Assembly (NCBI RefSeq): GCF_026210795.1
Contig: NC_089454.1
Location: forward strand, 1,798,001 to 1,862,000
Length of the DNA stretch: 64,000 bases
Direction: 5' to 3'
From: Rhizophagus irregularis
Taxonomy: Eukaryota; Glomeromycota; Glomeromycetes; Glomerales; Glomeraceae
Shown here: positions 23,650 through 50,326 of the stretch, one piece after another
Numbering within the stretch: the first letter of the stretch is position 1
How the letters are laid out: each line of letters opens with the position of its first letter
Notes under the pieces: generated by a model
The model's input: the letters and a program-made list of their open reading frames with translations, nothing else
Told to the model about the DNA's origin: nothing
Database searches by the model: none
Position numbers and translations under genes: made by a program

Positions 23650-23689
23650 CTTTACTGAAATATTCAAATCTAAAATAATATCTTAACGA

Positions 23690-24245
23690 TATCATTATGA
23701 GATCGTAACGATTTCATGACGATTTTCTAAAATGATAACATATTGATATAGTTACGACTCTCTTAACGATAACGTAATAATACTGTGACGATACAGTGAA
23801 TGATAACAAAACGATATCATCCAGATATTTATTGATACTGAAATAGCATCATTTTAGTATCAGCACGATATCGTCGCAGCAATGATACAGTGACAATACA
23901 GTGAATGATAGCAAAACGATATTATCCCAACACTAAGATAGCATCATTTTGGTATCAGCACAATATCGTCGCAGCAATAATACAGTGACAATACGGTGAA
24001 TGATAGCAAAACGATATTATCCCGACACTAAGATAGCATCATTTTGGTATCAGCACGATATCGTCGCAGTATTATTACATTATCATAACTGTATCAGCAT
24101 GTTATCATTTAAAAATCGGCATAAAACCAATATGTTCCCATATTGATGTCGTTGAGATGTATAGAAAACAACTAATGATTATTCAGAATATCAATCATGA
24201 TATCTTAACGATATTTAAATGTTATCAGCTTGGTATTATGACAAT
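23690..24245. repeat. GATATC-rich subterminal region with 95-bp tandem repeats
   Basis: Dense ACGATATC, GATACAGTGA and TAGTATCAGCACGATATCGT words. From about 23799 to 24080 there are three tandem copies with a 95-bp period (copies start at about 23799, 23894 and 23989). The opposite end of the 16-kb insertion (39380-39740) has a similar but non-tandem GATATC-rich stretch. Confidence 0.7.
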
Positions 24246-24976
24246 AATTAAAGTATCAATTTTATTAATAATCAAAATTTACTTATTACATATCTGATCA
24301 TAAATAATAATTACAACATCGTTACTAGTGAAATTACTAGAACTAACTTTATTTCCATAGTATATGTGAAATTTAAAGCATTTACAATTATTTAATAATA
24401 CCATTCGGTTTTTAAAAAATACGTGTAATTAATAATAATACCTACCATACTTACCGAAAATAAGATGCAACAATTGCAGACACAAGTGCTGTTTTAACAC
24501 ATACTAAATCCCTGATGGACATGGAATGATTGTTTTGATTTTACCGCCAAGTCTATGGAAGCAACATCTCCAATTGTTCCTAAAAATACTCTAGTTGAAT
24601 ATGATATAAAGATAACGAGTGAGTAATAATATAATTTACTTATAATTTTTGATATTATAAAAACTTTGTTTATTAATAACCTTTTGCAATATTTTATCGC
24701 CGAGATTACGAATAAAGTCCTAATATCTATAGCTTCATCACCATGCGATGTAGGAGGATTTTAACATGAACAGCCTTCATAATTTTTAAATATCAGGATG
24801 TGATCGGCAAGTTCGCACCAAGAAATCCATGATCTGAGAGCCGAGAACATTATCTTTGTAAAATTTAGATTCATTGTTGAGATGAGAAGATCGATAACAA
24901 GCCTTTCACTTCATACCATGACTGGAGATATTGCACGCAAGGATTTTCCCGGAGAGGATCCTGTTGCTGAGGATGA
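24246..24976. other. No secure gene
   Basis: AT-rich to about 24480. Around 24537-24630 one plus-strand frame reads FDFTAKSMEATSPIVPKNTL, protein-like but unassigned. 24700-24976 may be further decayed retroelement DNA belonging with the RT remnant. Confidence 0.3.
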
Positions 24977-25502
24977 TTAGGAATGAAGATGTTGTCCTAT
25001 GAGAACTGGAGGCGCTATCAAAAAGTTCATCAGGAGGGAGTTAGATAAGATTTGTTTTCGTTTACTATGAACCCATGGTTCTACTAGCAATTTTACGATA
25101 ATCGAAGCATGGTCTTGAGCCTGTTCTTTTGATGAAGCCATTATCAACAGGTCGTTTAGATAATCCACTATCCTTATCCTCTGAGCTCGATATTCTGGGA
25201 CTTGTTGTCAAGCCGAACGGTAAACATGAGGAAATCGAATGCAAAATATTTTCGTTGGAACTCTGCTAGCGGTATGTGATAGAAAAAGCTTGATTGAGGT
25301 CGATAGTGACCATAAAATAGCCGCGTCTCAACAATGACTTTACTAGGTCTAGTACATCTTGAAGTGGTTGTATTGAACGCGTTAGAATTTTTGAAGATTT
25401 GTAGCTACTTTCGTTATGCTGTTTAGCTCTGGCGGTTTGACTGGCCACCCTGGTTGTCGTTTCCCGCAGGTTGATTCTTCCCTTTCCAAGTATTACTCTC
25501 AT
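24977..25502 (-). pseudogene. DIRS-like reverse transcriptase fragment
   Basis: Minus-strand fragments in RT order: LQDVLDLVKSLLRRGYFMVT followed by IDLNQAFS (motif with the first catalytic Asp), then a shifted LPFGLTTSPRI, then YLNDLLIMASSKEQAQDH, where YLDD has become YLND. This motif order and the SKEQ extension are typical of DIRS/Ngaro tyrosine-recombinase retrotransposons. No recombinase, RNase H or termini were found. Stops and frameshifts separate the blocks. Confidence 0.65.
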
Positions 25503-25869
25503 TTCTTCCTTTATAGTTGTTGTCGTTAGGTTTCTTAATATTGTGAAAAAAAACAGTAGTTAATCTGAAAAATAACTTACTTCAAACTTCAAAGGTATCA
25601 AATTTCAAAGAAACTGGTAATTATTTAACTTTAAATAAATATTTAAAAATAAAAAGTTTGGCGTAGAGGGATTTTATCAGTAAAACAAAAAACAAAAAAT
25701 TTAAGGTTTTTATTGGTTAATCAGATCCAGTCACGTGAAATAGCATTGCTAAGTCACGAATATGAAGATCGATCGCTAAATGCATTATTTTAAATAACAC
25801 TAAATGATACCACCATTAATTTCATCCTACTAATTACAAATAAATATAATAAAAGTCCTTATTATAAAG

Positions 25870-28800
25870 TCATATAGCAGTAAAAAAAAAATCATTTTTT
25901 ATCCAGCATTCATTCGTTGCATCATAAACAAAGTGAACCTTTTGCACACGGTCAATTACTGATATTGGGAATATTCTTCTCCAACATGTATCATAGGTTG
26001 CCTGAATACGATAAAGAGGACATTTCAATACATGGTGAACTCTCTTAATTTCTTCAAACCAATCAATAATAATAAATGCATAAAATTTATTATTGTTGGC
26101 TTTATATTTGAAGATTCCTTTTATAATTGCATAACATTCATCATGATTTTCTTCTTGTATTGTTACAAAGTCACCAATATGAAGATGGATTTTGGAGAAG
26201 ACACCACTAGTAGTTTCTTCTATTATATAGGTTGCCAATTTATACCAACTCATTTGAGAATATATAAGTGCTGACTTAAATCCAATATCTTCAAATGAAA
26301 GGAGCAACTCAGAATTGAAATGTGGCAAGTTCAACATAATATTTTCACGATCTTGTTGGGATACCCCCTTTTTTAAAGTAATATGTGTAATAAAGTTTAC
26401 TGGAGAAGTTACTATAATAAAATTACAATGTATAAAATTAATCATTCAGTAATCAGATTTGAATTTAAAAAAAAAAATAGTATCAAAAAATTTTGCACAA
26501 ATTTTTCTTGATTAGAATTACTTAGTAAATAATAAAATTACAATACAAACCATTATCTTGTTCATCATGTTCATTTGATGTTTCTTTGTTTTCAGTAATA
26601 TACCAATTGGTTAATATATGCCTAAAATTTGATGTCAGAGAAGCAAACCCATTACAACTTTGAGATAACCTATAATCTATACCACCATCTACTAGATGAC
26701 GAATTGCAAAAAGTGTGGTATATCGTTTTAATAAATCTAATTCAATATTCTTGCGATTTGTCCGGGTACCATTGCTTTAAAGACCCGGTGTACCATTTCT
26801 TTGATACCACATTGAGTATTTATAAGAGTACCATAAGTTTTTGCATGCATTAGTAAATGAACACTAACATGCAGATTTGGCAAGTTGACAAATTCAGAGA
26901 AAACCTAAAAATCATTTATTATTAGTAAATAATTAATTCAAATTGCTATACTAAGTAATTATTTATACCTTTGGAAGAATATTCATTTCTTCTTTAAGAC
27001 TTTGCTGTAATTCTTCATAAGAATTTATTGTAAACTTGCTTTTAAAGACCATACTCATTGTTTTTGCTATATGAACCCAACAAGTTATTATTATATTTTT
27101 TACTAAATTAATACGTGATGCACCAGTTCGTTGTTGGATATTTTTTGCCTCATTATTCTTCAAACTAGTTATTTTTAAAAACCGATTTAATATGAAAGGC
27201 ATTATTATAGCAAGCCGAAGGTAATCAGACATCATAAAACTTTCCCGGTGGCTAATGGGATTTGGTATACGTGACCATGTCTTTGGTTTCTCAAAATCTT
27301 TCCAGGTTTTAATGAAATCATTTTCTCCTTCTTGTGAAAATAATTCACAAGTTAATTTGAGTAGACGTCCAATTTTTCCTGCAGTAACATGGTAAATATC
27401 TTGTGGTGTTTGCAAATATCTCTCTCTTTTCAGTTCATCTAAAATATTAGGCTGTAATTTCAATCCATATTTCCTACTAAGTTGTTTTTTTTGAGAAATA
27501 ACTGTTTCAGCAGATATTAAAGCAAATTCAGAATCTGTCAAGTGATGATATCGAGAAGTTAAAGCTATATCTTGAGTAAAATCAGTAAATGAATCTTTAC
27601 TTATAGTACAACTTCTACACCCCTTATTAGCATTTTGTCGCAATACACCAGCCAAATCATTACCTTGGGGTAAGTCAGCTGTTACAACTCCTATGCTTGC
27701 AATTACCCAAACATCCTGTCCTTGTATATTCATTACTTTTCCTTTTTCAAGTTCTTTTATTTCAGAAATAAAAGGTTTTATAAACTCATTAAAATCACCA
27801 CCAAATGGGACAAATCCAAGGACAAAGTGATTTTTAAGCAACTTCCTTTGATGACTTGGCATATTTCCAAATTGTATATAAACACCTCTTAATGAATGGT
27901 AGACATTTCGGTATGTGCCAAAATCATCATAATAAAGATCCAAAAATAGTTTGCAGACTTTCATGGAAGGAGATGGTGGTAGTCTTGTTATGATATAATC
28001 AGCAGGGTGTTTATATGAAAAATCTACATTACGAATGCGCCAGTAACTATTATGTCTATAAACTATTTCAGTAATATGCAATGTTTCTTCAGGAATGAGA
28101 TTATGCTGGAATATCATCATCACAGTAGCTTTTTTAGAAATTTGTGATATTCCAATTATTTGAAAAGATAGGTCTTGTAACCAAACTTCACCAGTAAGAG
28201 AACGGTTCCATCTTAGTACTCCCTTAAAAGCTCCAGGCAAATCATTATAATATAGAACTTTTTGGATTCTTAGCTAATATTGCTTATCAACTTCATTCAT
28301 TAATATTGCTCTCAATCTACCAAGGTGTAATTGTTCATTATTGTCATTATCATAATAATAAACAAAATCTCCACATCTATATGTCTCTATTAGATATAAA
28401 AAAACAATAGAATTATTTTACACAAATTATGAATAAGAATAAATAACAAATATGATTATATGATCATTACCTTGTAATATTGTTAATTGTTCTTGGCCAA
28501 AAAGTCGCATTCTGCCCATAAAGTTCCATGCCAGTATTCAGATTTTATTTCTGAATGAATACCTGGACCAAAATACATATTATTAACTAATGATGGATTA
28601 CTAAGGACATGCCAAATAATATCATTTATTGAAAGTTGATATGCTAATTTTGAGTTTTTAGAAGTTGATGGTGTTTTTTTTGATGAAATTGGGATAGATT
28701 TTGCAGATATTGAAAGAAGAGGAAGATGTTGCCTCCATGTTCGAAATCTTCGGATATTTCTTACAATATGATTCCTATTGAATTCTTGATTCATAATAAT

Positions 28801-29458
28801 ATCAACAAGATCTTCATACGCATTTGTTGAGATATCATGTTTATGAATCCAACAAAATAAAGCAGCAGTAGTAAAATCTTGGAAATATAGTGCAAAATTG
28901 CCATTAAAATTTGGTAAATTGCTTTCATCTAGCGCTCTATCAATGAATATTTTTTTCCTCGATGAGGGATTAGCAATATTTTCTCCGCTTTCAAGATGTT
29001 GTTGTATCACTTTGTGATGATGCATAAACATGGTTTTCACCTTCTAGAGATGTTCTTCCTGTATCGCTATTATAATCATCATATTCTTCGTTTTCTGAAG
29101 ATGCTGTATAATTATCATCATTTTCTGACGATGTTGCATAATCATCATTTCCTGCATTCCCATAATCATCATATTCTTCGTTTTCTGAAGATGCTGTATA
29201 ATTATCACTATTTTCTGATGATGTTGCATAAATATCATCATTTCCTGCATCCTCATCATCGTCATATTCTTCATTTTCTAATTGCATATCAACATTATAA
29301 TTATTTCGTTGTTCATTACTATTATCAAAATTGTCACTACCATTATCATCATTTGGTGGTACTATTGTACCTTGTGGTTGCCTTCTAAAATTATTTCGAA
29401 TACGAAAAGGTAATGTAGTAGTATCCCTTCGTGCTCTATTTCGCAACATTGTTAACAA
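25870..29458 (-). pseudogene. BAH-domain transposase (Plavaka/KDZ-like), decayed
   Basis: Start ATG 29458. The N-terminus is acidic with imperfect repeats (YATSSENDDNYTASSENEEY). Then come HKVIQQHLESGENIANPS, a block ending NNMYFGPGIHSEIKSEYWHG, and a BAH-like segment after the intron at about 28395-28475 (CGDFVYYYDNDNNEQLHLGR). A TAG at about 28274 interrupts the frame. The 425-codon core (26963-28240) has SLRGVYIQFGNMPSHQRKLL and TADLPQGNDLAGVLRQNA with Cys-x2-Cys after it. Exons at 26562-26908 and 25870-26450 end with a second BAH-like region (FPISVIDRVQKVHFVYDA). Frameshifts occur near 29030, 28505 and 26770. I associate this architecture with Rhizophagus transposable elements; the superfamily label is tentative. 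Not active as read. Confidence 0.65.
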
Positions 29459-30480
29459 TCAAAATCAAAATTCTAAATTTTTATGAATATACAAAAATTA
29501 ATGCCTTATTCGTATATTTGCTTATAATGCAATAAATATTATTATACTGACCTATATGGTGGCTATAGTGACTGAAATATACGTATGTTGACTGAGCTAA
29601 GCTGAAAGCTGAATCTCTGAATCGCCAAGTAAAAAATACACCAATCTTTTTTATATTGATATCTCGAAATTCAACAAAATCCCGGTTTCACCTTAATATG
29701 TCCTTTTCTTGATAAAGATAATCAAAATACACAAACATATATGAGTCAAACACAACGGATGCATTTTTCTTGATAGAACGTGACACAATTATTTTAGTTG
29801 TATTACTTTCGCATCGATCAAATCACAGCACGTAAATAAAATAAAAATATTACAATAAAACAATAAAATAAATATAATAATGTTTTTTAATATATGTAAA
29901 TTTATTAGTGAAGTTGGAAAAATAAATTTAAAGGGGAATAAAAGAATAAAAAGGAGACGATAAAGTTGGAAATATAAAATAAAAAAAAGTCAAGCCAACA
30001 CCGATTATCGGTGTGGTATGATACCAATGATTGTTATTTAACAATGTTAATGTATTTCGTACAGAATTGCATATAATATATTTTAATTGTAAAACTATTG
30101 TAAAAATTGAAGTCTGCATAATTAAATATTAATCGTGAATTAATCATCGGTAGATCAGTATTCTATATAAGGTTTTATACAATATTGTTCTTCCTAGCCA
30201 GAAATCAATCGGTAAATTATTTTATTTTTATTATCAATCGGTATTATTAAATAAATCAGGTGACCTTGTAGTAATTACATCTACTTGCGTCACATAATCT
30301 ACAACATGCAGATTTTATCAAATATCACTTTAACAAAATTTATCTTATGCATCATCGTGTATTATTTGTTATTAAGAAAAAAGAATTCTCAATGATGATA
30401 TTACTTTATATATCATCACATCATACATCAATAATATTCTGTCACAACAATAATATCACACCAATAATTTTTATTACAAT
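29459..30480. other. AT-rich intergenic DNA, no gene seen
   Basis: Upstream of the BAH transposase. Short repeats ATCAATCGGTA occur at about 30210 and 30234. A small hairpin ACACCGATTATCGGTGT is at 29999-30015. Nothing coding. Confidence 0.4.
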
Positions 30481-31902
30481 CCCTATGAAAAAAAATCATC
30501 CAATTTTTGTACAATATTTGTTCAAGTCCGTGTGGAAATTGTACAATTATTGCAGATTTTTGGATAAAAATAGCTATGAAGTTTTTCAAAGCATATTAAA
30601 AGTATGCAATTTTTGTACAACTTAAATTTAAGATATAGAAAATGTTCAATTTTTGTGTGATTTTTATACAACTTAAATTTAGGATACAGAAAACATTCAA
30701 TTTTTGTACAATAAAAATTGTGATTATTGTACAACTTGAAAATAGACTTAAATTTAGGATACAGAAAGCAATTTTTGGGTAATCCTACTATACTACTTTC
30801 CATCTTACCTGTATGGTTACATTTGACCACTTTTAGGGTCGAATAGACCACTTTTAACCATTACAAATAGATTTTCCTAAGTAAAGTGATTTATGCAGTA
30901 AGGTTACATAAAATTCAACTGCATAATTGCTTATAAATGGGCATCTTCTGGACCCATTGGTGAAATTTTTGTATCATCTTGTAACTAAAAAAAAGTCAAA
31001 AACTTTTTATTAGGTTACACAATTAGTTCTGACCGGAATTATAATTTGGCCAGAATTATGCGGTAAAAATCAACTCTTAAAATTATATATGTTGATCACG
31101 TGATCTGATCGTCAAAATAAATATGACGACGCGAAATGTTTTTGTTTATGTTTTTTTAACCTTTTAACTTTTCTTCAACTTTCTTTTAAAATATCAGGTA
31201 AGAAAAACTTGTGTTCTTTATCTTTTTATTTTCCTAACTTTTTACATTTTAATGTTACTAACTTGCTTTCTTCACTAACTTCATACTTTTTTTTATTACT
31301 AATACTAATAATTTACTTTTTAACACTACTAATTTGCTTTCTTCACTAACTTCATACTTTTTTATTACTAACACTAATAATTTAGTACTTTTTAACACTA
31401 CTAATTTGCTTTCTTCACTAACTTCATACTTTTTTATTTAATACTAATAATTTACTTACACTAATAATTTACTTTCTTCTTTGATAATACTAATTTACTT
31501 TCACGTTACTAACATACTTTATTTATTTTATTTTCTTACAAATTTTTATATTTATGATTATATCAAATTTAGTATTTTATTTATGAAATATTGTGTATAT
31601 TTTTTATATTTTAAGTCAATAAAAAAAATTCATAATTTCACTTTATAAATTGCCTGTTATTACTGTAAAATTTAACCTATAATTCCTAAAATATGGCCTA
31701 AAAAAATTTGGCTCAAAAATCACACAATAATTGTATAAATTCAGGTCAAAAATAGGATAATTATTGAATGAATTACCATGCAATAATTGTGTGATTTATT
31801 GCAATTTTTAGCACAATTATTGTATGGTCAAATATACAGAAATCGTAGTGAATTTAATTGAATGATTTTTCAACAAAAATCACACAGACTTTTTTTATAG
31901 GG
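30481..31902. mobile_element. Candidate inverted-repeat element (CCCTATRAAAAAA ends)
   Basis: The left end CCCTATGAAAAAAAATC and the inverted right end CCCTATAAAAAAAGTC are alike, with AAT on both sides as a possible 3-bp duplication. The interior repeats AATTTTTGTACAACTTAAATT and CACAATAATTGTA words and has no recognisable gene. The A-runs weaken the terminal match, so this is tentative. Confidence 0.35.
31250..31500. repeat. Tandem repeat, about 65-70 bp unit, three copies
   Basis: Units contain TTGCTTTCTTCACTAACTTC and ATACTTTTTTATTACTAAT words repeated almost exactly. Each unit holds intron-like ACTAAC and pyrimidine-rich words. No coding potential. Confidence 0.7.
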
Positions 31903-31952
31903 AATATATTGCAACTTCACTACATTTTATTACATTTTTTTATTAAAATTTC

Positions 31953-33645
31953 AGTGAGCTAGCAAAATTCTTTCCACTACGGGACGGAATTTCTAAATTT
32001 TCCGTATTTTTATCTAATCTTTTGATTTGATTATAGAAAGCCTTAGTGTTGGTTTCGTTCCTTTCCTCCCACGCAATACTAAAACATTCTCTCGAAAATT
32101 CAATTAGTTTGTCCATTGATATTTCTGAAATTTCAGAAATATCAACCGCAGAAAAATAGCGGTTAAGAATTCTCTTAATAGCGACTTCACATGAAATAAA
32201 ATTGGTAATCTCAACTTGAGTTTCTGTTTCTGTAGTAGTTCCTCCTCTTTAAAAAAAAAGGAAAGAAATTCATATTGACATTAGTTATAAATACAATTAT
32301 AAATGCAAATAATATTATATTGATTACCTTTCTAATTTTTTTTGAAATTCTCGGACTAATTCTTCAATTGACACCCTAAGCTGATAACGATAGTCTGAAA
32401 AGGATTTTCTACATCGATCTATAATTGATTTCGCTGTGCTACTATAAGTTTCAAATTCGGGAAAAATTTTTCGTACTAGTTTTTCAAAAACGAGACCAGG
32501 TGGGAACCGAGATCTTAAAAAAAGACATTTTATTTCTTCGTCGATTAACCTATATTTTTCCTAAATAATAATAAAAGTTTTTGTGAAATATTTATGAAAA
32601 TTATAGTCACAACAACTGAATGTATCGATTGAAATACAATAAACGCTTACATTGGATGCGGTTGATGGCGCGTGTGCTGGCTGCTGCACTGCTAGTGCTA
32701 ATTGTGACGTATTATCCTTCATATTTAACATTTGAGTGGCTAGCTGCAGGATATCCGGATGATCAACTAGCCAATTGCAGATTTGCAATTGGTTTGTCAT
32801 TGATTCGAATTGGAGGGAACTTAACGTCATATTTATTTTATTAATAATAAATGAAGATATTTATGTATAACAAAATATTGTATTAAACAAGATTTTACCA
32901 GAATAGTTATCGTCTTCTTTTTCTCTATAATCTTGATCATCTTCTTCTTTCATTTCTTCTCCTCTTAATTCTTTCTCTATTCTCTATTTCTCGTCCTTCT
33001 TGTTCTCGACGACGAACGAGGGATTCTGACGTTCTCGTTCTTGTTCTTGACGACCACGGTGAGGATTCTGACGTTCTCGTTCTTGTTCTTGACGACCACG
33101 GTGAGGATTCTGACATTCTCGTTCTTGTTCTTGACGATCACGGTGGGGATTCTGACGTTCTCGTACTTCTTGTTCTTGACGATCACGGTGGGGATTCTGA
33201 CGTTCTCGTACTTCTTGTTCTTGACGACCATGGTGAGGATTCTGCTGATCTTTGGAAAGATCTTATCATTATTTATTATTGTTTTATTATTGTGTGTTAT
33301 TATTGTTTGTTTTTAATAGTTTTTAAGTAAAAATTAATATCTTCAATTGTATATAATAAAATGCAAAATTCATTAAATTCATAAATTAAGATTCTATGAC
33401 TGACCTCCGAGAAAATCTATTTCGTCATCCTCATTGCTTATTTCATCGTTAATTCCTCCATCCTCATCGTTAAATTCATCATTAACTTCTTCGTCTGTTC
33501 CCGATACAGTTTTTGCTCGACCTTGATTAGTTTTCGCAGCTTTTGATTGACTTTGAGCAATTCCTGCAGCTTTAATTTGACTTGCCGCGGACTTTGACTT
33601 TTTAGTAGGTTCTGTTATATAGATAGCATTAAAACCGCTATTCAA
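31953..33645 (-). CDS. Uncharacterised spliced gene
   Basis: Not recognised. The 3' exons are open and join cleanly: 32651-32819 (QFESMTNQLQICNWLVDHPD...), 32328-32560 (EKYRLIDEEIKCLFLRSRFP...DRCRKSFSDYRYQ) and 31953-32246 (GGTTTETETQVEITNFISCE...ending FASSLKF). Introns of 90 and 81 nt have GTAAGC/AG and GTAATC/AG. Upstream are a low-complexity repeat exon (QNPHRGRQEQERER-type, about 32900-33243) and an acidic exon (33394-33645, EEVNDEFNDEDGGINDEISN). The start and the join between the repeat exon and 32819 are uncertain, and reading the repeat exon through to its 3' end needs frame changes. The conserved-looking C-terminal half may be a DNA- or RNA-binding domain; that is a guess. Confidence 0.5.
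33020..33243 (-). repeat. 42/45-bp tandem repeat in coding region
   Basis: Five units with periods 42, 42, 42, 45 and 45, all multiples of three. One minus-strand frame encodes QNPHRGRQEQERER and QNPHRDRQEQEVRER repeats. A period kept in multiples of three is consistent with coding constraint on the array. Confidence 0.7.
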
Positions 33646-34716
33646 AAATCAAAAAAAATCAAAAAAAAGGAACCAAAAAATATTCAAATATTACTTGATC
33701 GAACCATGATTTAAGAATACCAATCAGATCAGAAAAATCTTAACCCTTGGGAAAATAAAGTGTCTCTTGCTCTATTGTATTTATATCTGACTCTAGCAGT
33801 ATAAGAACCTGTTTATTGGTAATCATGCCTTGTCAAACCATTTTCTGAATGCCACTTTTCTGAATATACTTCTCCCGAAATCAATTATCTAAAATGCCAA
33901 TTTTCCAAATAGGATCTTTCCCTGAAATATTCACGAATCTGTATTTCCTGAATTCCAAATTCCTGATGCTCAATTTCCCAAATCCCGAAACCTAATATAT
34001 CCTTATACCCAATATCCCGAATGGGCAATTTCCCGAAATATAAAATAATATACTGTAATCTCTTTTAATTCATATGATTTATTATAAACTGTGTAATAGA
34101 TAATGGATGAGAATTATTGTGATAAATACTTTGTTTCCATAAATCGGAAATTGGCTGATACAGATGTACATATATCGTAAACGGATCAACAGATCGATCT
34201 GTTTATATACTGCAGTCACGATAACAAAATTTTCCGGTTATGCACTTAACTGCTGTAATCATTGACCTATCGCATATTATTTAAAGTAATGTAAGAATAT
34301 TAAATAATTGGGCAAAGATATGCACATATAAGATCAAATGATAAAAGAATGAAGTCAAAAAAAAAAAAAATTTTTTTTAAAAAAAAAAATTTGAAAAAGG
34401 AGTGCAGTGCAAGGAGTACAAAAAAAAATTTAAGGGGCCGAAATGCAAAGCGGATAACCCAAATCAACCCGGTAACTTACGTGATCAAAGTATGTATCCT
34501 GGGAAATTTTCATAAGATAAAAAGGAAAAAAATTTGTGTATTATTAATTTGGAACATAATCATTGTGCTATAAACCCGATTTAGGTAGTAACTAATATGT
34601 ATTTTATTTATATTTTAAAATTTTTTTTCGTTTAAGAGCAATGATATAAAAAACAACATAAAAAACATATTTTATATACAATAATATACAGTGTATTCGA
34701 CTTTTTAGTATACTGT
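33646..34716. repeat. Intergenic DNA with CCCGAAAT-type repeats (33830-34040)
   Basis: 33830-34040 holds about eight degenerate copies of TTTCCCGAAATnC / AATTCCnAAT words at intervals near 25-35 bp. The rest is AT-rich with a 30-base A/T run near 34360-34390. No gene. Confidence 0.4.
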
Positions 34717-34851
34717 AACGTTCCTCCAAATAAAAGAATTGGTATTGATATTGACCCAAAAAGAAAAGATGTAGTTAAAATTAACCGTAGCCCAATTGTA
34801 GAACAATATCCAAAATATTGTGTGAACGCTAAAACGATCATGCATAATTAG
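34717..34851 (+). other. Possible coding fragment
   Basis: An open plus-strand run begins NVPPNKRIGIDIDPKRKDVV and ends HAN-free at NAKTIMHN before TAG. Composition is protein-like, but no family is recognised and no start or upstream exon was established. It might be a terminal exon. Confidence 0.2.
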
Positions 34852-37188
34852 ATAAGCCATGTAACGGTTGTTACAAATAAATTTACAAAATGTTTATATT
34901 ATACTGTACGTGAATTTCGTGAATTTTATGATCTTTATATATATGTAAGAAAAATATTTAAAGAATTTATTATAGGTTTATTTATAATCTTAATTTTATT
35001 TATAGATAGACAATAATTAATTAATTGATTAGGGTTCGTCAACGAATTATATATACTTTAGTAACAAACCTATTTCTGTTTCCTTGTCTAATACGCGTTG
35101 CTAACTCCTGCACGCTATAAATTTTTTCCTAACGAATATCACATCTCCCTTTTCAAAATCTTTCTCAATATTCCTATCCGAATGAAGGCTTTGATTTTCA
35201 AATAATTATTTTTTTGGATCATTGGCGTCTAATATTGACACAGCCGTAACCTCTTACTCTTGAGTGAGCCTTTCGCTAGAACCATGTAGAAACTTGGACA
35301 TTTTTTGATAAATGGTATTTGTGGAGGTTCGGGTGCAATTGGTGTAAAAAGTTTTTTTGTTAAAATATTTTTTTACATGAAATTAATGAAAAAATCTAAA
35401 GGATGATGACTTTTTATACCTTTTTTTATAATGTTAGAAATCTTCTTTTTTTTCAAATTCATTCAAAAATTCAAAATTCGTTAAATTCGATCGTTGAAAA
35501 AAATTGATAATTTAATAATTGAAAAGAAGGAGCCTCGAATTTTCATTTTCCCTATGGAAAAAACATCATGAGGCATGAGACTTCATTATTTCATTATCAT
35601 TCTCACGAGGCAATCACTTGCCATTATATTAAACGTCCGTATAAGGAACTGTAACATTTTTTTTTCAAATAAATTTTGTGAAATGATTTTTTTAATTAAT
35701 TAATAAATCCAAAAAAAATTTTTTTTAAGGAGGTTAAAAAAAAAAAATCTTGGATTGAAACGTAATGATATAAGTTACAGGTCAGCAGCATCAGTGTAAA
35801 TATATAGTTATATATTTATTATTAAAACATGACCTCTCCTTCAAGGAAAAAGAATCATACAATATATTTTAGATATTTTAACATGAATATTTGTAATTGC
35901 ATACTTCAATCCCATAATTCACAGTTTTTTATAAATTATTAAATTTTTTATTGTAGTTACAAATCGTTACCATCCTAGCAATAGGCGTTGTACAATTGGT
36001 AGATCTAGCTCTGCTCTACCATTTCGTCTAACGATGGACATTGTATAACTGGTATCATTTTTTTTTGGGTTGTCATTAGTACCGACGTCCTCGTCGTACA
36101 ACCTGGGTACTAGTAATATGCTAGTAGCAAACGGGTACTACTAAAATTGAAAAGAATGAAGCTGAAGCAAACAATTAAACTTTTTTTTATTGTTATTACA
36201 CGTGAATCTTTTTTACTAGTTATGAATTTTTTTTATCCGCTAATAAAAAACTTTTTTCACATGGTTTTTTCATGTTTTTTTTATATGTATACATTTTTTA
36301 AAATATTGATGAATTTTTTTATGTGATAATTATGTAAACAAGTCATTTTTTTTATAAAATAAATATTTCCTAAAATGATAATATTCCTCGAGTTTGATCG
36401 TTCGATTAATGATCTCAAGGCTATCTCTTTTTTTTTGTATATAAGAACAAAAAAATGATTATTTTTTTAGTACTCTAACGTAGCGGAAGAAAATTTTTTA
36501 GGTATGAATTTATAAAATTTTTTCTTTATATAAATTGACTTCAATAATTTAATTTATTTTTATTGATAATTTATTTAATAGAAAAATCAAAGCAGTGGTT
36601 TTAATTTTTTTTTTTATTAATTCAACGCGCAGTCAGCAGCAGAAAAAATTTTTTTAGGTACGAATTTAATAATTGACAATTCATATAGAGAGACAATTCA
36701 TAAGCTACTATTAACAATTAATTGATTAAAGCATGTCGCCACCTGGATCATCAAGAAAAAGGACGAGAAAGACCTATTTCCAGCGTCATACTCATCGTCA
36801 AAAAGACAAAGAAGAAAGAAGATGAAAAGATAAATCCTATGAATTGGAAAAGAAATATGATAATCTTTTGGAAAATTCTGCATTTTTTCTTATTTGGGGA
36901 TTTTTATTATTGTAGTTTTTATTTTTATTTTTATTGCTATTTTAATTAATAAATACTATTAGTATAAATACTTCTAATTTCATTTGCTGATTTTGATCAC
37001 TTTTGACTATATTCTCAAACCTGACTTTTTAAAAATGATCGAACCCAACTGTACCACCACAGATTTGATGGTGATGCAGGAGACTAAAATCAAAAATTCG
37101 ACCATGATCTACATTAGATATTGGTCGAATAATGCACTAATTAAACGTCACGCGTATTTAAAGTTTAAAAAAGGATCATCTTTTTTAA
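34852..37188. other. AT-rich DNA, no secure gene
   Basis: No gene supported. An ATG at 36733 opens MSPPGSSRKRTRKTYFQRHT and runs to a stop within 34 codons; continuing past it gives KDKSYELEKKYDNLLEN, so this may be a fragment of a coiled-coil gene. Small hairpins occur, for example around 36084-36104 (GTACCGACG/CGTCGTAC) and a perfect 12-bp stem at 37162-37191 (AGTTTAAAAAAG/CTTTTTTAAACT) just before the pyrimidine tract. Confidence 0.35.
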
Positions 37189-37302
37189 ACTCCCCTTTCC
37201 CCTTCCACTTTCCCTCCTTTCGTTCATCCTCCCTTTCCCTTTCGTCCTTCCCTTCCCCTTTCGTTCTCCCCTTTTCTCACACCTTCTTCCGCCTCTTTTT
37301 CT
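37189..37302 (+). repeat. Polypyrimidine tract
   Basis: Nearly all C and T over more than 110 bases (CTCCCCTTTCCCCTTCC and similar). A purine-rich tract at 37474-37500 (GGGGAAAGGGGAAGGAGG) is complementary to parts of it. Together they could fold across the first intron of the array, or form triplex/H-DNA. It may be the first exon of the array transcript. Confidence 0.6.
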
Positions 37303-37312
37303 TGGAAGTAAT

Positions 37313-38480
37313 GTAAGTTTCGTTTCGAAACTTACATATCTTTTTTTTTAATTTTTTTTTTAATCTTTTTAATTTTAATTAAGAAACGAACTAACGTTTC
37401 TTTTCGTTATTTTTTTTATAGGACGTGTAGGAGGACGCCGGCTTGTTCACGAAACTGGACTTTAAGGTAAAAAACGGGGAAAGGGGAAGGAGGAAGGGGT
37501 TTTGGAACCTAAGATTCTTAAGAATCTTGGTTTTATTTATTTATTTTTTTTATTATTTTGGAACGGTTTACTAACTGTTCCTTTCTTTTTTTTATAGGCT
37601 CGGTGTATTTCCGATGAATGGATGAACCAAGATTCGTAAGTACGAGTACGAATCTTGGTTTATTTATTTTTTTTTTTAATATTATGGAACGGTTACTAAT
37701 AACCGTTCCTTTCTTTTTTTAGGTTTTGGTGGAGCTTCCGAGTTCCGAAGAACAGAAAAACTAAGATTCGTAAGTAAGTACGAATCTTGGTTTTGTCTTT
37801 TTTTTAAATATTATTAACGGTTACTAATAACCGTTTTTTTCTTTATTTTTTTAGGTTCGGGTGTCTTCCGAAGAACGGAAAAAGAGGACCAAGATTCGTA
37901 AGTACGAATCTTGGTTTTGTTTATTTTTTTTTAATATTATGAACGGTTACTAACCGTTCTTTCTTTTTTTAGGTTCAGGTGGGCTTCCGAAGAACGGAAA
38001 ACCCAAAGATTCGTAAGTACGAATCTTTAATTTTTTATTTATTTATTATTACAAACGGTTTACTAACCGTTTTTGTATATTTTTTATAGGTTCGGGTGGG
38101 CTTCCGAAGAACGAAAACCCAAAGATTCGTAAGTACGAATCTTTACTTTGTTTTTATTTTTTATTATTACGAATGGTTTACTAACCATTCTTTCTTTTTT
38201 TTATAGGTTTGTGGGCTTCCGAGGATCGGAAAAAGGAGAACTAAGGTTCGTTACGAACCTTGGATTTTTTTATTATTATGAACGGTTTCTAACCGTTCTT
38301 TTTCTTTTATTTTTATAGGTTCGGTTGGCTTCCGAAGATCGAAGGAACCAAGATTCGTAAGTACGAGTACGAATCTTGATTTTTGTTTTTTTTTATTATT
38401 TTGGAACTAACCGTTCCTTTCTTTTTTTTAATAATTTCTTACGTTTGTAGGACGGTTCCTTGGAATTTTCTTCAGCTTTG
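37313..38480 (+). other. Tandem mini-exon/intron array with hairpinned splice sites
   Basis: Seven units of about 112-132 bp plus divergent end units. Introns (GT...AG) are 37313-37421, about 37467-37597, 37636-37722, 37770-37854, 37898-37972, 38013-38089, 38129-38206, 38250-38318 and 38357-38450. Exons between them are only 30-47 nt. The 5' splice site GTAAGT lies in the loop-side of a stem AAGATTCGT/ACGAATCTT. The branch point TACTAAC lies in the loop of a stem GAACGGT/ACCGTTC at 18-20 nt before the AG. Exons carry a third small stem, TTCCG/CGGAA. Stems change in a paired way between units. Exon lengths are mostly not multiples of three, so a long protein is not encoded. Function unknown: a structured spliced non-coding RNA, or an amplified exon-intron unit. 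Confidence 0.8.
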
Positions 38481-38960
38481 GTAAGTTTCTTTTGAAAAAT
38501 TTATTTCTGGGAAAGGGAGGTGCAGCTGGTGTTTTTTCATAGTAATTAGATAAAATTTTTTTTTTTACACCATAGCCACCATGTACGCTAGGAAAACGGA
38601 ATCCTTCGTGTTGCATAACTCGCAAATGTTACGTGTAGGACGTGTAGATGTCTTGGAATTGGTAAGTTTTATTTTTTTATTATTAATTTTGATTTTTTTT
38701 TATTAATTTTTTTATTAATTTTTTTATTAATTTTTTTATCTTTTAATTTGTAAAAATCGATGGTTTCACACTTCCCGGATCAAATTAGTAAGTTTTTTCA
38801 CTTAAAACTTTTTTTAAAATTTTTTTTTATTATTATTTAATTTTTTTATTATCTTTTTTTGTAGTTTCGGCTTCCTTATCCCGGATCAGTAAGTTTCAAA
38901 ACGGTTCATTTTGAAACTTTTTTTTTAAGTTTAATTTTTCCGAATTTTTATTTCAGATCG
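38481..38960 (+). other. Downstream continuation with micro-exons and hairpinned donors
   Basis: GTAAGTTT donors at 38481, 38661, 38788 and 38889. The last two sit in stems AAGTTTT/AAAACTT (38790-38810) and AAGTTTCAAAA/TTTTGAAACTT (38891-38919). A 24-nt micro-exon, 38865-38888 (CTTCCTTATCCCGGATCA at its end), follows TTGTAG and resembles the exon end before 38788. T-rich intron bodies separate them. The array therefore extends to about 38960 in looser form. Confidence 0.55.
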
Positions 38961-39379
38961 GACTTGGACTTTATTTTTTTTCTTTAGGTATAGTTAGACG
39001 ACTTTTAACATTCGTTCTTTTCAAGATGCGATCACGTGATTTGAACTTTATCTTTTTTTTATTTATAATATTAGATAAATGCTAATATACGTGTACTGTA
39101 GCGTTTAATAAATTAATAAATTTGAAATTGAACTAATATTAAACTAAATTAATAAAAAAAATATTGAAGAATAAATTGGTCATCTTTAGACCTTAAAATT
39201 TTGTCGAATAATATTTATCCGAACTTGTGCCTTAATTTGACTACTATTAGACCTATAGTCAAATTTAGGTTGAACGGTAGTGTAATGATAGTTGAATATT
39301 CTTTCCGTATAAGACGATTGGCATCCAAACTGCGCCAAAAAATTTGACCTTAATTTGACTTGTCTTTTTTCAACTAGTG

Positions 39380-39772
39380 TAAAAAAATCGTTTTAGCAAT
39401 ATTAAACCGATATCAATATGATAATTATTTGTTGTTTTAGCGATATCAACATATTATTGATTTAACATTTTTAAAATAATATCGTTATGATATATTTTTA
39501 ATACTGAATTGATATTATATCAATATCGTGTTTTTTCACATTTTTTTTAAAAAATATCATTGTCATTTTGACGATATTAAAGTGATATCGATTTGATATT
39601 TATTTAAATAAATATCTCTACGATATCTTTTTGATATATCAAATCAATATTGGAACGATATTATCCTAATATTATAATGATATCATCTGCAAATCGATAT
39701 CACTACGATATAGAATTAACATCATTATTATATCAATTTGGCATTGTTTAAAATTTTGAGGTTTCTGTAAAG
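39380..39772. repeat. GATATC-rich right subterminal region of the 16-kb insertion
   Basis: Many CGATATC, TGATATC and ATATCAATA words, both orientations, ending at the right terminus TTTCTGTAAAG. It mirrors in composition the left end at 23690-24245. 38961-39380 before it has no visible gene. Confidence 0.6.
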
Positions 39773-39774
39773 TA

Positions 39775-40679
39775 GTAAGCGAGTTTCTAACTGAGATTGA
39801 TGGACGCCTACATTTAAAACAAGCTGATATAGAAAAGCATCCCTATGTACCTGAAGAAGCATGATGTTTTTTAAAACCTGGCATAAATCAAGAGGGTTAT
39901 TGGATAGCAGAACATCTTCTTGAACAAATTGAATGTAAAGTAATCCCTATTTTTGAAGCTTTATATTCAGATTGCGTAGCTGTGTTTGCTTTTGATAATA
40001 GTTCCAATCATGCTGCTTTTAGCAAAGATGCCTTAGTTGCAAGCCGAATGAACCTAAACCTAAGCGGTAAACAACCAGTTATGCGGAATACTTACTTTGG
40101 GCCAAATAATCAGTTACAAACAATGGTGTTTCCAATAACATATCATGATGAAAAACTTCGTGGTAAACCTAAGGGAATTAATAAACAAGTATTAATAGAG
40201 CGTGAAAAATGGCCACCTGGAGGATTAATATTAGTCTGCAAAGAATGCAAAGAAAAGATTCAAGACATTTCAAGAACTACCTGTTGTGCACGTCGAGTAA
40301 TATCTTTGAAACCAGATTTTATTGCTCAAAAAGGCGCTATTGAGGAATTAATTGAAAATGCAGGCCATAAATGCATTTTTCCCCCTAAATTTCACTGCGA
40401 ATTAAACTTTATTGAGAGGTATTGGGTGCTGCTAAAAGATATTCGCGTGAAAATTGTGATTATTCGCGGGAAGGGTTACAAAAAATTGTTCCTGAAAGTC
40501 TTAATTCGGTAAACTTAACAACTATTAGAAAGTTCTCAAGAAAATGTTGGTGTTATATGGACCTTTATAGAAAAGGTATTGATGGAAAATTGGTGGAGTA
40601 TGCTATAAAAAAATATAAATCTCACAGAAGAATTTCAGAGTGTGTTTTGGAAGAGTTAAATAAATTTACAAATGATTAA
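39775..40679 (+). pseudogene. DDE transposase, 3' half
   Basis: Begins VSEFLTEIDGRLHLKQADIE in the frame that continues the half ending at 23649. It holds the second catalytic Asp in FAFDNSSNHAAF, then NLSGKQPVMRNTYFG, a Cys-x2-Cys pair (LVCKECKEK...TTCCARR), and the third acidic residue in CELNFIERYWGAAKRYSREN. One G is missing near 40425, splitting the frame between YWG and AAKRY. A TGA at about 39862 is a further lesion. The family's C-terminal helical end (YRKGIDGKLVEYAIKKYKSH) is present to the stop. Together with the left half it gives a complete, though mutated, DDE transposase. Confidence 0.85.
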
Positions 40680-44944: not shown

Positions 44945-47900
44945 ATGATGGACAACAAAAAACATAACTTTTCCCCTCACCCCTCTCCCCTTATTAAATT
45001 TGGTCAATTAAATGTTAATGGTTTATGTTCCCCAGTTCGACAACAACATTTGCTTAATTTTTTTCTCCACTCCTCTTTTGGTGCTTTATCTATTAATGAT
45101 ACGCGTCTTTCCCTTCAAATGCTAAATTTATTTTCAAAAATGAACACTCCCAACATCACTTTAAGTCCTATTGGGCTTGTTCATCTTCTTCTTCTCGCCC
45201 TCATGATGGTGTTGGTATTTTGTTACGTAATCCCCTTCATAAACATGTTCAAACGATTGATTCTTGGAACGGTCGACTTCTTAAATTAGACTTGTTCTTT
45301 CATCAAACTAAAATTTCTATTATTTCTATATATTATCCCCCTTCTGGTTCTGTTCATCAATCTATTTGCAATGATCTTATTGCTAAACTTCTTTTTTGGC
45401 TCGATTATGCCCGAGCTAATAATTATTTTGTAGTTATTCTTGGCGATTTCAATGTTGATGCAATCGCTCATTCTAATTATTCACCTAATCATTTTAAGCT
45501 TCTTCGCTTGCTTTCTTCTCGGTTTTTTACCGATCATCAAGCTCACTCCTCTACAAATGGTCCTGATCCCACTTTCTTTCATGATAATGGATCTTCTAGA
45601 CTGGATTATATTTGGTCTTCACCTGGTTTTCCTGCCCCTGGTCTTTTTTCGCAAGTGGTTACTTGCTCAGATCTCCTTGATCGTCCTTTTACAGATCACA
45701 AAGTTCTTACAACTATCTTTGACTTCAGTTCTTGCCTGGCTGTTTTGGCTAAATTTCGTCTCAAACAAAAAAAAGAAATGCGTACTATTTTCTCTTACGC
45801 TTCCACTTCAGTTGAACAATGGAATAATTTTACCACTGAAGTAGATGATTCTCTTGGAGTTTATTTAGATAGACAATATCACCCTGATCTTGATTTCTCC
45901 TCTCTTTCTCTTGATCGTATGTGGCATGCATTGAAAGCTGCCATAATTAGTGCTGCAATTGAAACTCTACCCTTTCAAAAAGTCTCCAATACATACCGAC
46001 ATTCGTACTCTCCTGAATTAACTAAACTTATTGCTATTAACAAGTTTTTAGATCGATTTTTATATCGCCTTACTACTCGTCGTTCTAATCGGCCTACTCA
46101 GATTGCGCAAATGACTGCCGCTTTGCCCTCCCATCTTGAAAATCTTGCATCCTTACTTCCTGATTACTCAGTTCCTACTTATTCTACAACCCCTGCATCT
46201 GTATTTAAATCGTTTTTACGATCACAGAAGACTTTAGTTTCTGCCTTTTTATCTACTAAATTCGCCCAACATCTTACGGACTCAGTGGAATATTATACTG
46301 CACTACGTGATGAACACTTTTCGAACTCGCTCGGCACTTTTATCGATTCTGCCTTATCAGTAGAAAAACGTTCAATTGTTCTTGACCGTGTTTTGGTCGT
46401 TTTGGACTCAACTCCTACTTTATTAACGGATCCTTCGGATATTAAACATGCGGCTGTCTCTCATTTTCAATCAATTGTTTCTCCTCCGTTGGTCCACTAT
46501 TCTTCCATCACTTCATTTCCCGCCCGATGGCAACAAGCTTACACTCCTCTTGCAAATGTGTCTGCTTCATTATATGATCCTGTTTTGGCGCCTATTTCCC
46601 TACAAGAATGGTCTGCTGTGATTTCCTCCATGCCAAATAACAAAGCTTCCGGCCCTTCAAAAATTTCTTATGAGATGATTAAACACTTATCCGGTGAAGC
46701 CTTGGATTTTTCTCTTTTACTTGCCAATACTTGCCTTTCTCGTGGTGATATTCCTGCTGACTGGCGTGAAGCCGTGGTTTATCCTATTCCTAAACCTCAT
46801 GACTTTGATGCTCAACTAAAGAACACTCGACCTATTACCCTTCTGGAAACAGTTCGAAAATGTGTAGTTAAGGTCGTCACGAATCGTCTTTCCAACATCC
46901 TTGCTGATAATAAAATTCTTCAAGGAGGAAATTTTGCTGGTTTACCTGGTGGTTCTACTGATGTCCCTATCAAAATGCTGGATGCAATTATTCATCAACA
47001 TAAACATGACTCTACTGATGATCAGGAACTATGGATTATTTCTCAAGATATCTCTAAAGCTTTTGATTCTATGGATCTAAATATGCTTAAATTAGCTTTA
47101 GATAGGTTACATATCCCTGCACTTTTAGTGCGATTTATTTTAAATCTTTTCACACGACGCAATAATAAGATAATTACTTGTCATGGCGATACAGCTGCTT
47201 ATAGAGTATGTGTTGGTATCGATCAAAGAGAAATCATTTCCCCTCTTCTTTGGGTTATTTATTTGGATCCCTTACTCACTGTTTTGAATCAAGAAGCACG
47301 AGATCCTTTTATTTTAAAATCTTCAGCTCTTTTAAATTACTCCCCACTTGAATTTGAACAACATTCTTTACCAATTTCACATTTAACGTTTATGGATGAT
47401 TCTACACTTATTGCTTCCTCAAAATCTGGAATAGAAGACCGTCTCTCTATTACTGCTGAATTTTATACTTTAAATAATGTTCAAGCTAATTCAGCGAAAT
47501 ATGTTCTTCTTTCATCCTTTTCGCCTTCTTCGGAGATTACTTTTGATCTTTCACCTTCCCTTTTAATTTCCAATATATCTCTCTCCCTTTCTTCTTTACC
47601 TCTTAAAACTTCATTTCGCTTTTTAGGTGTTTGGTTTTCTTTATCCGCCTCTTCTGATTTTGTTCTTAAACAAGCGCACTCCATGGTTAAAGATATGGCT
47701 GCTCTCCTGGGACCGAAGAAATTATTAGCACAACATGTGGCCTATCTCTATAATGCTGTCCTTCTTCCGCGATTGGAATTTCGTCTTCAAACTACCCTTT
47801 TCTCTGAAAGTACTATTCAATCAATTGTCAAGCCTCTGTTTTCAGTACTTCGAAGAAAAGCTGGTCTTGCTACGACTACTCCATTGCCCTTGTTATTTCT

Positions 47901-50326
47901 GAAACTTCCCTTTTCGATTCAGAATGCTTTTTATCGCTTTCTTTCTTCCCATATAGCATCTTGGCAAAAAATTTTCACTCATCCTGATTTCAAAGATTTT
48001 GCCCTTTATGCTATCTCCTATCTTCAAGGATATTTGGGTGCTGAAAGTTGCCCGACTACTATTAACTTAGAACCATGGTCACAGATCGTTTCTTTGCGAA
48101 CGCACACTTTGTTTAATTCGTTATTGTTTTCTTCGCGTTTGAACATCACGTGGTCTCTTTCCTTCCGGCCTCCGAGGCATGATCTACAACCTGCTCTGCC
48201 ACTCCGATCTATTCTACCTCATTCCATTTTTCAATCGAGTTGGAAACTTTGGAAAAACCTGAATATATTTGTGCTTGCTCAGTTGGTTTCTCCTTGTGGA
48301 CGTTATCTTATGAATTGGCCTGACCTTCGTTATCTTGCATCGTTGGTCGTAAAGGACGGATCCCTAATTGGTTTACTTTTATCAATAATAATTTTCTCTC
48401 TTCTTCTTTTTCTACTTTACTTTTATCTTCATATTTTATTAATTCTTCTTTTACTTTAGCTTCTCCTTGTTTATTAGATCATACTGTTAAAGATTATTCT
48501 TTTTATCCTCAATGGGCTATTACTCTTGACTCTGCTACTCAAACTTTATCTGTTGGTCGTGTGTGTATCACTTATAAGAAACAAAACTCGGCTATTATGT
48601 CTCATTGGCTTCCTGTATCTACCTCGGCTGATGAACGATCCTATGACCCTTGTCCCGGTTGTGCTCTTAACATTCCCGCCTTATCCATGAAATCTGCCAT
48701 CAGACAACGCTGTAATAGCGAGAAATGCTTTTTTAATGTAATCCTATCGGATACTGTGGGCTATCCTACCAGAAATGCCAAAGTTTTCGCGGCTTATCTT
48801 CCCATTACTCTATCTACTTCATGGAGTTATGCATCCTCCTTGGCTCTTGTTCATTTTTCGAACGCGTCTCCTGCTCTTTCTCCTCCTTTTAAGGATAGTA
48901 TCGATAGAATTGAAGACACTATCTTACCACTTTCGGTGCAATCTTTGTACACAGATGGTTCGTTCCATCCTGCCAATGATTCTTCGCCTTCTTCCATGAC
49001 TTCTGCTTGGATTGCTCTTGATGATGATGGACTTATTCTGGAATCTTCTTCCATGCATCTCCCTTCTTACTTTCCTTCCGCTTTGCGTTCTGAAATTTCT
49101 GCTGTTCTATTAGGATTGAATGCCCTTTTCCGTGATTCGTCAATCTCTATTTATACTGATTGTAGTCAGTTAATTTCACTATGGACACGGTTTGTTGATG
49201 CTCCTTTCTCACCGAAGTTGCTCCGAGAACCTAATCATCTTCTTTGGCTTTCTATTCGACAAATTATCATGGATCGTAATCTTGATGTCGAATTGATTAA
49301 AGTCCCTGCTCATGGCGATGATATCTACAATATACAAGCGGATTCTTTGGCAAAAGATGCTCATTCGTCTTTACAACCCACTACTCTACTTTCAACATTT
49401 TGTTATGCTCCATGCTTGTTGACTTTTAACTCCTTGCCTATTGACGTGAATATTCGACATTTTCTCCGCTCTATTGCAGATGCTCGTGCTCTTTTATCTT
49501 TCTGTTCACTAGCGCGTTTTACTGCTCTTGGTGCTCCTTCATTTTTTGATTGGGCTGGTATATATTTTTGCCTTTCACAAATTAAAGGTTTTGCTTCACA
49601 TAGGAATGGTCGTCCTGAATTTTGGATCTTCCGCATTAAACTTCTTTTGGATATGTTGCCTACCTTAACTACTCTTCAACAACGTAAACCTTACTTATAT
49701 TCTCCTGACTGGCTTTGTCCGCAGTGTAATTCTGCTCCTGAAGATTTGAATCATCTTTGGACTTGTCCTTATATTTTACCGGAATTAAATCCTTGTTTAA
49801 CGCACCGGTCTGAAGTCATTAAATTTAGAGATTCTTGTTTATCTTCTTTCCTATCCTTGAAATCTTTGGATAAATCCTTTCGTACCGATTTCTTTGCTTT
49901 GGATTGCTGGAACTATGAAGCTCCTCTTCATCTTGTCTTTGGCTCACTCGAGGATTGTTGCCTGTGCATTTAACGGCATTTTTGAACCAATACTTTCCTC
50001 TCTCTGTTATATACAAGATTATTTCTCCCCTTCTTAATGACTTCCAAGTCGCATTATATGGTGAAATTTGGCTGTGTCGGAATGTTCTTTTTCATGCTTG
50101 GGAGGAGTCGCAGGGTATCTCGGCTGCTTCCAAATTATGTGGCCCATCTACAAATTCTTTCCCTAATACCACTCCACAACAACACAACTCTTCTTTGGCG
50201 TCAGTTTCTCAGGATACCTGGATTTCTTGGATATCCTCTTCTATAATTCGGGGTGGATCTTGGATCTCGCACTTGGATTTTCTGCGCCGCTTAACAGTTC
50301 AACCTCTTAGGATTTCTTTCTGGTAA
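44945..50326 (+). pseudogene. LINE ORF2: endonuclease, RT, RNase H, zinc finger
   Basis: Starts 54 nt after ORF1 at MMDNKKHNFSPHP. AP-type endonuclease: KFGQLNVNGL, GDFNVD, SRLDYIWSS and TDHKVL. Reverse transcriptase: NKASGPSKISYEMIKHL, RPITLLETVRK, ISQDISKAFDSM, GIDQREIISPLLWVIYLDPL and the active site FMDD (47389-47400). RNase H: YTDGSF, SEISAVLLGL, YTDCSQ and NIQADSLAK, with all four acidic positions present. A Cys-x2-Cys/His/Cys finger (CPQCNSAPEDLNHLWTC) is near the end. The long frame 45220-48459 is open. Frameshifts near 45190, 48345 and 49950 break the protein into four pieces. It nicks target DNA and copies its RNA by target-primed reverse transcription. Confidence 0.85.

Follow-up and report, generated by a model that had tools for sequence, protein, structure and literature searches.

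What kind of element carries the tandem array of intron-like units in this part of the Rhizophagus irregularis genome, and do the hairpins around its splice signals act in RNA? The window, i.e., the whole stretch of 64,000 nucleotides analysed here, had previously been read from its letters, and the original prediction saw in it a tandem array of mini-exons and introns, in which each 5′ splice site and each branch point is wrapped in inverted repeats. The array and its hairpins hold up in our analysis, but this reading missed that the array appears to be the cargo of one transposon that lies inside a second one.

A tandem array with hairpins at its splice signals

TRF reports a repeat at 37,540-38,430, with periods of 117-123 in its main rows and 7.4 copies in the 123-bp row, and a profile built from six units of the window gives 8 units at the locus, which confirms the tandem character of the array (Table 1). 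Each unit runs from an AG through the exon (38-47 nt within the window) and AAGATTC to GTAAGTA..CGAATCTT and a T-rich stretch; its second half consists of GAACGGTT..CTAAC or CTAAT..AACCGTTC, followed by a pyrimidine tract and an AG. On the 5′ side, the array is preceded by a 12-bp palindrome, a CT-rich tract and an intron 1 with donor and branch hairpins of its own. The CT-rich tract is present too in the loci L024 and L026 and in the second element family described below.

Table 1. Features of the array element and of the transposon enclosing it (positions in the window)
Feature	Position	Strand	Basis or remark
16.1-kb transposon enclosing the array element	23650..39772	+	ends CTTTACTGAAA / TTTCTGTAAAG, TA duplication
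Array-element remnant, non-autonomous CACTA-type, 5′ end absent	37117..39379	+	homology to L004-L010, L022
12-bp palindrome 5′ of the CT-rich tract	37162..37191	+	counterpart in other F1 loci
CT-rich tract, promoter-like (putative promoter)	37192..37300	+	sequence
Intron 1 donor hairpin, perfect 12-bp stem, unrelated to array sequence	37311..37337	+	
Intron 1, predicted	37313..37421	+	GTAAGT...CTAAC...TATAG
Intron 1 branch hairpin, 8-bp stem around CTAAC	37381..37402	+	
Tandem exon-intron array	37506..38430	+	about seven units, ~117-125 bp each
Donor-type hairpin without GT donor	37506..37533	+	AAGATTCTTAAGAATCTT
Donor hairpin, 14-bp stem	37625..37660	+	GT at 37,636
Branch hairpin, 10-bp stem	37686..37709	+	
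Donor hairpin	37757..37794	+	GT at 37,770 and 37,774
Branch hairpin, 8-bp stem	37816..37835	+	
Donor hairpin	37881..37922	+	GT at 37,898
Branch hairpin, 8-bp stem	37941..37959	+	
Donor hairpin	37998..38035	+	GT at 38,013
Branch hairpin, 8-bp stem	38053..38072	+	
Donor hairpin	38121..38144	+	GT at 38,129
Branch hairpin, variant	38171..38190	+	GAATGG/CCATTC
Donor-type hairpin, variant	38230..38274	+	AAGGTTC/GAACCTT, GTTACG replaces GTAAGT
Branch hairpin, 8-bp stem	38280..38298	+	
Donor hairpin of the last unit	38346..38381	+	GT at 38,357
3′ region, predicted donors 38,481, 38,662, 38,788, 38,889	38481..38956	+	conserved in diverged copies
CACTA-type 3′ end	39369..39379	+	TTCAACTAGTG

The proposed intron grammar of GTAAGT, branch motif and AG is found in register across hundreds of units. 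As predicted, six of the array's donor hairpins have perfect stems of 10-14 bp, and the 12-bp donor stem of intron 1, unrelated in sequence, is present too; both paired variants that had been pointed out, AAGGTTC/GAACCTT and GAATGG/CCATTC, were found as well. Other details need correction. GTAAGT does not occur in every unit, since the one near 38,250 reads GTTACG. Branch stems of at least 8 bp surround eight of the 10 branch-like sites, whereas there is none at 37,571 and one of 5 bp at 38,407 (the sites at 37,814 and 37,824 belong to one common hairpin). The exon stem TTCCG/CGGAA exists, but it comprises merely 5 bp and is missing from some folds. The distance between branch point and AG, which had been put at 18-20 nt, is 21-29 nt (5-95% range of 309 predicted introns), such that the former values apply to the shortest introns only. 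In the 3′ region, the predicted donors at 38,788 and 38,889 have stems of 7 bp and 11 bp, and those at 38,481 and 38,662 are stemless.

Hairpins at splice signals compared with control DNA

Perfect hairpins are much more common at donor and branch signals than at control sites. A perfect stem of at least 8 bp is found at 9 of the 12 donor-like hexamers of the window element (a single hairpin accounts for two of them) and at 0 of 84 control sites, which gives a p-value of 1.7e-10 that overstates independence, because the array units are homologous. The control DNA comprised the window outside 37,000-39,400 and the flanks of fetched loci, on both strands, and 11 of its 84 donor sites came from L021 and L025, which are largely copies of window DNA. 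Among donors outside the array, three of five have a stem of at least 7 bp, compared with one of the 84 controls (p = 3e-4). Stems of this length were found in control DNA at 1/119 CTAAC, 14/310 TTAAC and 12/311 CTAAT sites. Folded as RNA, six units of the window gave z-values of -2.9 to -8.9. Such hairpins take up 35% of the bases in the array, about 2% in two stretches of the window beyond the element, and 0-18% in six non-array parts of elements.

The non-array introns, namely three sequence versions of intron 1 and two 3′ introns, likewise have their donors in hairpins, and these are unrelated in sequence. In L051, a transposase-bearing relative described below, 0 of 10 donor-like sites has a stem of at least 8 bp, which argues that the hairpins are not general to the superfamily in this genome.

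The array as transposon cargo

In the genome searched (146.7 Mb, 32 contigs), array DNA has at least 154 matches among the matches listed (40 of 341 candidates scored), and the perfect donor palindrome, allowing one mismatch, occurs at 432 places, as against 0 in a reversed control. The profile of six window units recovers 329 units (306 of them distinct) in the 28 loci searched with nhmmer, with 4-21 units per locus, some of which are clipped by the stretch fetched.

Both ends, CACTAGTCGAAAAA and TTTTTCGACTAGTG (at most one mismatch), were found in 16 distinct copies, where they are 1,429-4,289 bp apart; copies with one end or none (L001-L003, L012, L030, L031), the second family and duplicate fetches were left out of this number. 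CACTA/EnSpm elements duplicate 2-3 bp of their target, and an exact 3-bp duplication flanks 14 of the 16 complete copies. The two without it are L010 and L027, and L010 may represent one insertion together with L007, since their flanks are alike. The pattern of the 5′ end, with up to three mismatches, is found at 89 places (some of them 3′ ends) versus 0 in a reversed control, and for one subgroup of 5′ ends the matching 3′ end lies some 7 kb or further away. Two members of this subgroup, L051 (7.2 kb) and L052, are 97% identical to each other, have the target duplications ACG and AAA, and contain zero array units at E ≤ 0.01; a minus-strand ORF of L051 matches Transposase_21 (tnp2, E = 3.9e-11). 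L051 and L024 have terminal stretches of 112 bp (76%) and 145 bp (92%) in common, beyond which they share only a match of 55 bp and short subterminal ones. Ends, target duplications and the tnp2 relative together mark the array elements as non-autonomous CACTA-type elements with a foreign-looking cargo. To judge from these sequence features, the array is not a single gene but travels as cargo in non-autonomous DNA transposons, 1.4-4.3 kb long, that are dispersed over the genome, and an L051-type transposase would be what moves them.

We considered that the array might serve as a transposase-binding site. This is less likely, since the element ends carry subterminal repeats of their own, which they have in common with the array-free tnp2 relative. 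Plavaka transposases gave at least 123 matches (123 of 180 candidates scored), and the tnp2 element was found by pairing ends. On the opposite strand of L051, an ORF at 4249-5103 is rich in SSTPTPPNIATS-like repeats and is followed by coiled-coil-like ORFs, possibly representing a second protein of the tnp2 element. L030 and L031 contain a long low-complexity tract of CCCTTTCGTTTT-like repeats, which runs antisense to the array.

The copy in the window has kept its CACTA-type 3′ end and lost its 5′ end. Its left limit at 37,117, common to it and L022, resembles an element end, but it is the point of divergence from L022 and not a proven end. Position 37,117 is probably the insertion site of another transposon, ending in ...CAGCCCGATGAC, and this sequence also adjoins the array in L013 and L037. 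A GC-rich sequence ending in CACTACCAGCCCGATGAC adjoins truncated array elements at three unrelated places, L013:1270, L022:4596 and about 1060 in L037 (where it ends in GACGAC), as if another transposon with this 3′ end often inserted there.

The remnant lies within a 16.1-kb transposon, of which a second copy with the same two ends is located on contig C2; three blocks match at 97.5-99.4% and make up 14.5 kb of the 16.1 kb. This transposon in turn sits in a DDE_3-like ORF (downstream part 39,865-40,512), whose DDE_3 match, at E = 0.0064, is below the Pfam cut-off. Its own ORFs include a weak BAH-domain match (25,873-26,445, minus strand). Further downstream, the window has ORFs of a non-LTR retrotransposon at 45100-49973, with endonuclease and reverse transcriptase at 45,100-48,456 and RNase H at 48,324-49,970.

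A second element family with the same units

Array units are also present in L013, L014, L016, L017 and L020, the ends of which are CATCAGCAAGTTT. All three of these loci in which both ends were seen have 2-bp duplications (L014 AA, L016 AT, L017 CC); L013 is an interrupted copy, and the 5′ end of L020 is absent from the stretch fetched (L054). Intron 1 of this family has a different 12-bp donor hairpin, AGTTTCGCAACG/CGTTGCGAAACT, as well as a series of branch-type hairpins such as CGAAACGTTTTTTAACGTTTCG and CGGAACGTTGGCTAACGTTCCG; a member of this series (TCGGAACGTTGAAAAACGTTCCGA) lacks a branch motif, and in one copy the stem is imperfect. These data argue for one cassette that is common to two types of element whose ends are unrelated, and the different hairpins of intron 1 indicate that the layout with hairpins at splice signals recurs in unrelated sequence.

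A proposed mechanism

Most likely, the array units are introns, or were so until recently, of a non-coding transcription unit. The reading that we prefer, with slightly better than even confidence, is that of a transposon-borne, multi-intron non-coding unit, the hairpins of which probably slow or grade splicing. The CT-rich, promoter-like tract would drive a chain of duplicated exon-intron units as a non-coding RNA with many introns, and in each unit the 5′ splice site would be placed at the tip of one hairpin and the branch site at the tip of another. The hairpins would fold co-transcriptionally and compete with the U1 and U2 snRNPs, such that splicing of the chain would be slow and graded and would yield a mixed set of RNAs. 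Tandem duplication would alter the number of units, and a transposase made elsewhere would disperse the elements. We infer transcription, splicing and any effect of the hairpins alike.

In an engineered case, as far as the accessible part of the report goes, a branch site that is sequestered in a stem blocks splicing (PMC2275289). For yeast, the available portion of another study describes a depletion of structure around used splice sites (PMC12350175), by which the splice sites of the array may be poor ones. CMC-EnSpm and Plavaka elements are named, in the accessible text of PMC11075540, among the elements upregulated in roots colonised by R. irregularis; this renders transcription of the array family plausible, but does not show it.

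Covariation and decay of the stems

The main rival to the preferred reading is that the hairpins are palindromes of DNA, either binding sites or products of template switching that keeps the two arms alike, in units which may derive from an intron and whose RNA structure has no function. We regard this as a real possibility, if not a probable one. The original prediction had argued from covariation to selection on RNA structure, and the stems of many more copies can now be compared. Out of 306 distinct units, 286 were anchored, giving 228 distinct rows, and changes in 17 stem pairs were traced with FastTree and Fitch on a tree that is based on 112 columns of tandem units, which have possibly recombined. 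One donor-stem pair, A37-T52 (found as AT, TA and GC), shows 3 same-branch double changes among 4 and 7 changes (p = 9e-6). It is the one strong case among the eight pairs with same-branch tests; two others are weak and five have p = 0.09-1, and the remaining nine of the 17 pairs have zero double changes on the tree. Both weak pairs, G41-C48 (p = 0.018) and the branch pair at C85 (p = 0.049), lie at CpG, where a C-to-T change on one arm and a G-to-A change on the other restore pairing unaided. In 13 double changes the outcome was again a Watson-Crick pair, and in one it was not. That double changes appear without intermediates would fit copying from arm to arm, as the DNA reading expects.

Selection for RNA pairing on the array strand should favour G.U. 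On the tree, single changes from intact pairs led to G.U 94 times versus 115 times to A.C (20 versus 23 on internal branches; 49 versus 48 in the donor stem, 45 versus 67 in the branch stem), and this strand symmetry of one-sided changes speaks for DNA palindromes. The raw cells, which ignore relatedness, do favour G.U in the donor stem (98 versus 60; total 157 versus 139, branch stem 59 versus 79), which would count against them, but the tree does not. The G of the donor changed 17 times and the other three CpG bases 15-19 times. With no preference for G.U and no sparing of the donor G, the copies seem to decay without visible constraint by RNA pairing or splice-site function, on a tree that covers existing copies and not the active lineage (few copies), and in which the neutral decay of dead copies lowers power. 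Substitutions in the stems (28 loci) are mostly C-to-T or G-to-A at CpG, as expected if the copies are CpG-methylated.

In an alignment of 51 representatives of the 304 near-complete units, both hairpins are found, with two-sided changes in 4 of 12 pairs, and the covariation term of RNAalifold on the unit alignment is only -0.2 kcal/mol, another point in favour of the DNA reading. Selection on the RNA structure of the array hairpins is thus only partly supported: one pair covaries once more copies are aligned, but most other paired variants are at CpG and also occur on either arm by itself. Palindromes 5′ of the CT-rich tract, in both families, fit the DNA reading too, and as palindromes outside splice signals (37,162-37,191 in the window) we count them against hairpins that act in splicing. 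Against the DNA reading stand the placement of donor and branch signals at hairpins even in unrelated sequence, and the position of array and CT-rich tract on one strand in all copies read.

A bolder version of an RNA function, which we think unlikely, is that of a mobile RNA module: the hairpin-capped intron chain would be kept in both transposon families because its structured, slowly spliced RNA helps them, for example by engaging the spliceosome and evading RNA-based silencing, R. irregularis being rich in AGO-like genes.

Decay also bears on the view that the array is passive filler, an intron-derived tandem repeat amplified by slippage in non-autonomous copies and never, or no longer, transcribed. 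The CpG decay over the copies, with its unspared donor G, and the range in unit number from 4 to 21 would be expected of filler. A cassette common to two families with unrelated ends, and a grammar that is kept in the non-array introns as well, would not, and we consider this view rather improbable.

Coding potential and lone introns

The 309 introns predicted in 38 loci show a spacing of GT, branch and AG that is normal for spliceosomal introns, with a median length of 85 nt (quartiles 82-89), in a pattern search that itself required the GT, branch and AG signals. Lengths of the exons between consecutive introns are 0, 1 and 2 modulo 3 in 87, 62 and 59 of 208 cases (38 loci), and across five spliced chains that were inspected the exon motif turns up in each of the three frames. 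These two results stand against a tandem-repeat coding gene, such as an SP7-like effector, which we regard as very improbable. In its favour, 8 of 10 spliced chains exceed 95% of mononucleotide shuffles in the length of their stop-free stretches, and 155 of the 311 exons contain no stop in any frame; SP7-like genes, according to the accessible part of PMC11333574, contain tandem repeats together with a conserved intron. A strictly non-coding reading must explain the 8 of 10 open chains by repeat structure, and we attribute them, like the stop-free exons, to the tandem duplication of a single stop-poor exon; the excess over shuffles is set aside as coding evidence, since its null ignores tandem copying and the frames shift. 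The SP7 motif Y[KR]Rx[AP]x[AP] has 0 matches in 228 translated frames of the 38 loci. With no frame kept and this motif absent, the array looks non-coding, and we reject an SP7-like effector gene on account of frames, exon lengths and the missing family motif. A known RNA family was considered for the array, and Rfam 15 gave 0 window matches at gathering scores.

Least probable of all is that every unit is an introner, a mobile intron inserting singly into genes: each unit does hold a complete intron-like sequence, in many copies, and such elements often derive from non-autonomous DNA transposons (as stated in the available part of PMC9860276), but none of 10 lone-looking unit hits (drawn from 100 of the 432 palindrome sites) was a single intron in a gene, nine being in arrays and the tenth (L038) the last unit of a 5′-truncated element with a CACTA-type 3′ end that adjoins another array, and what moves is a whole element with its own ends.

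Comparison with known systems

In a literature search, the accessible parts of the sources contained no description of a transposon cargo of tandem introns with hairpin-capped signals. To our knowledge, no transposon cargo that acts through splicing structure has been described. The transposable elements of R. irregularis were about two thirds unclassified before curation, and the DNA-transposon criteria given in the available text of that study are a length of 1-17 kb with a transposase domain, or 50 bp to 1 kb for MITEs (PMC11075540); judged by this text, neither criterion seems to cover transposase-free elements of 1.4-4.3 kb. Provided that the introns are spliced, they offer hundreds of similar natural constructs for testing the effects of hairpins on splicing, and they would be a case of introns that multiply in tandem inside a transposon, not singly in genes.

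The array elements resemble CACTA (EnSpm/CMC) transposons in their CACTA-type inverted ends, 3-bp target duplications, subterminal repeats and a tnp2 relative with the same ends, but differ from them in carrying tandem intron-like units with hairpins. With fungal introners they share the multiplication of intron-like sequences by DNA transposition, although their units are in tandem within a larger transposon, whereas introners are found singly in genes. SP7-like effector genes also occur in R. irregularis and have tandem repeats and introns, but the array is without the family motif (228 frames) and without a kept frame. The structured introns of S. cerevisiae (zipper and downstream stems) are likewise short and have local stems; according to the accessible portion of PMC12350175, these stems bridge or reduce distances and are scarce at the splice sites in use, in contrast to those of the array. 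The theophylline switch comes close in that its branch site is in a stem, closure of which blocks splicing (PMC2275289, as far as available), yet it is engineered and driven by a ligand, whereas the array is natural, repeated and has no known ligand. CACTA elements, introners and structured introns are already known; tandem, hairpin-capped introns as cargo appear, to judge from the accessible sources, to be new.
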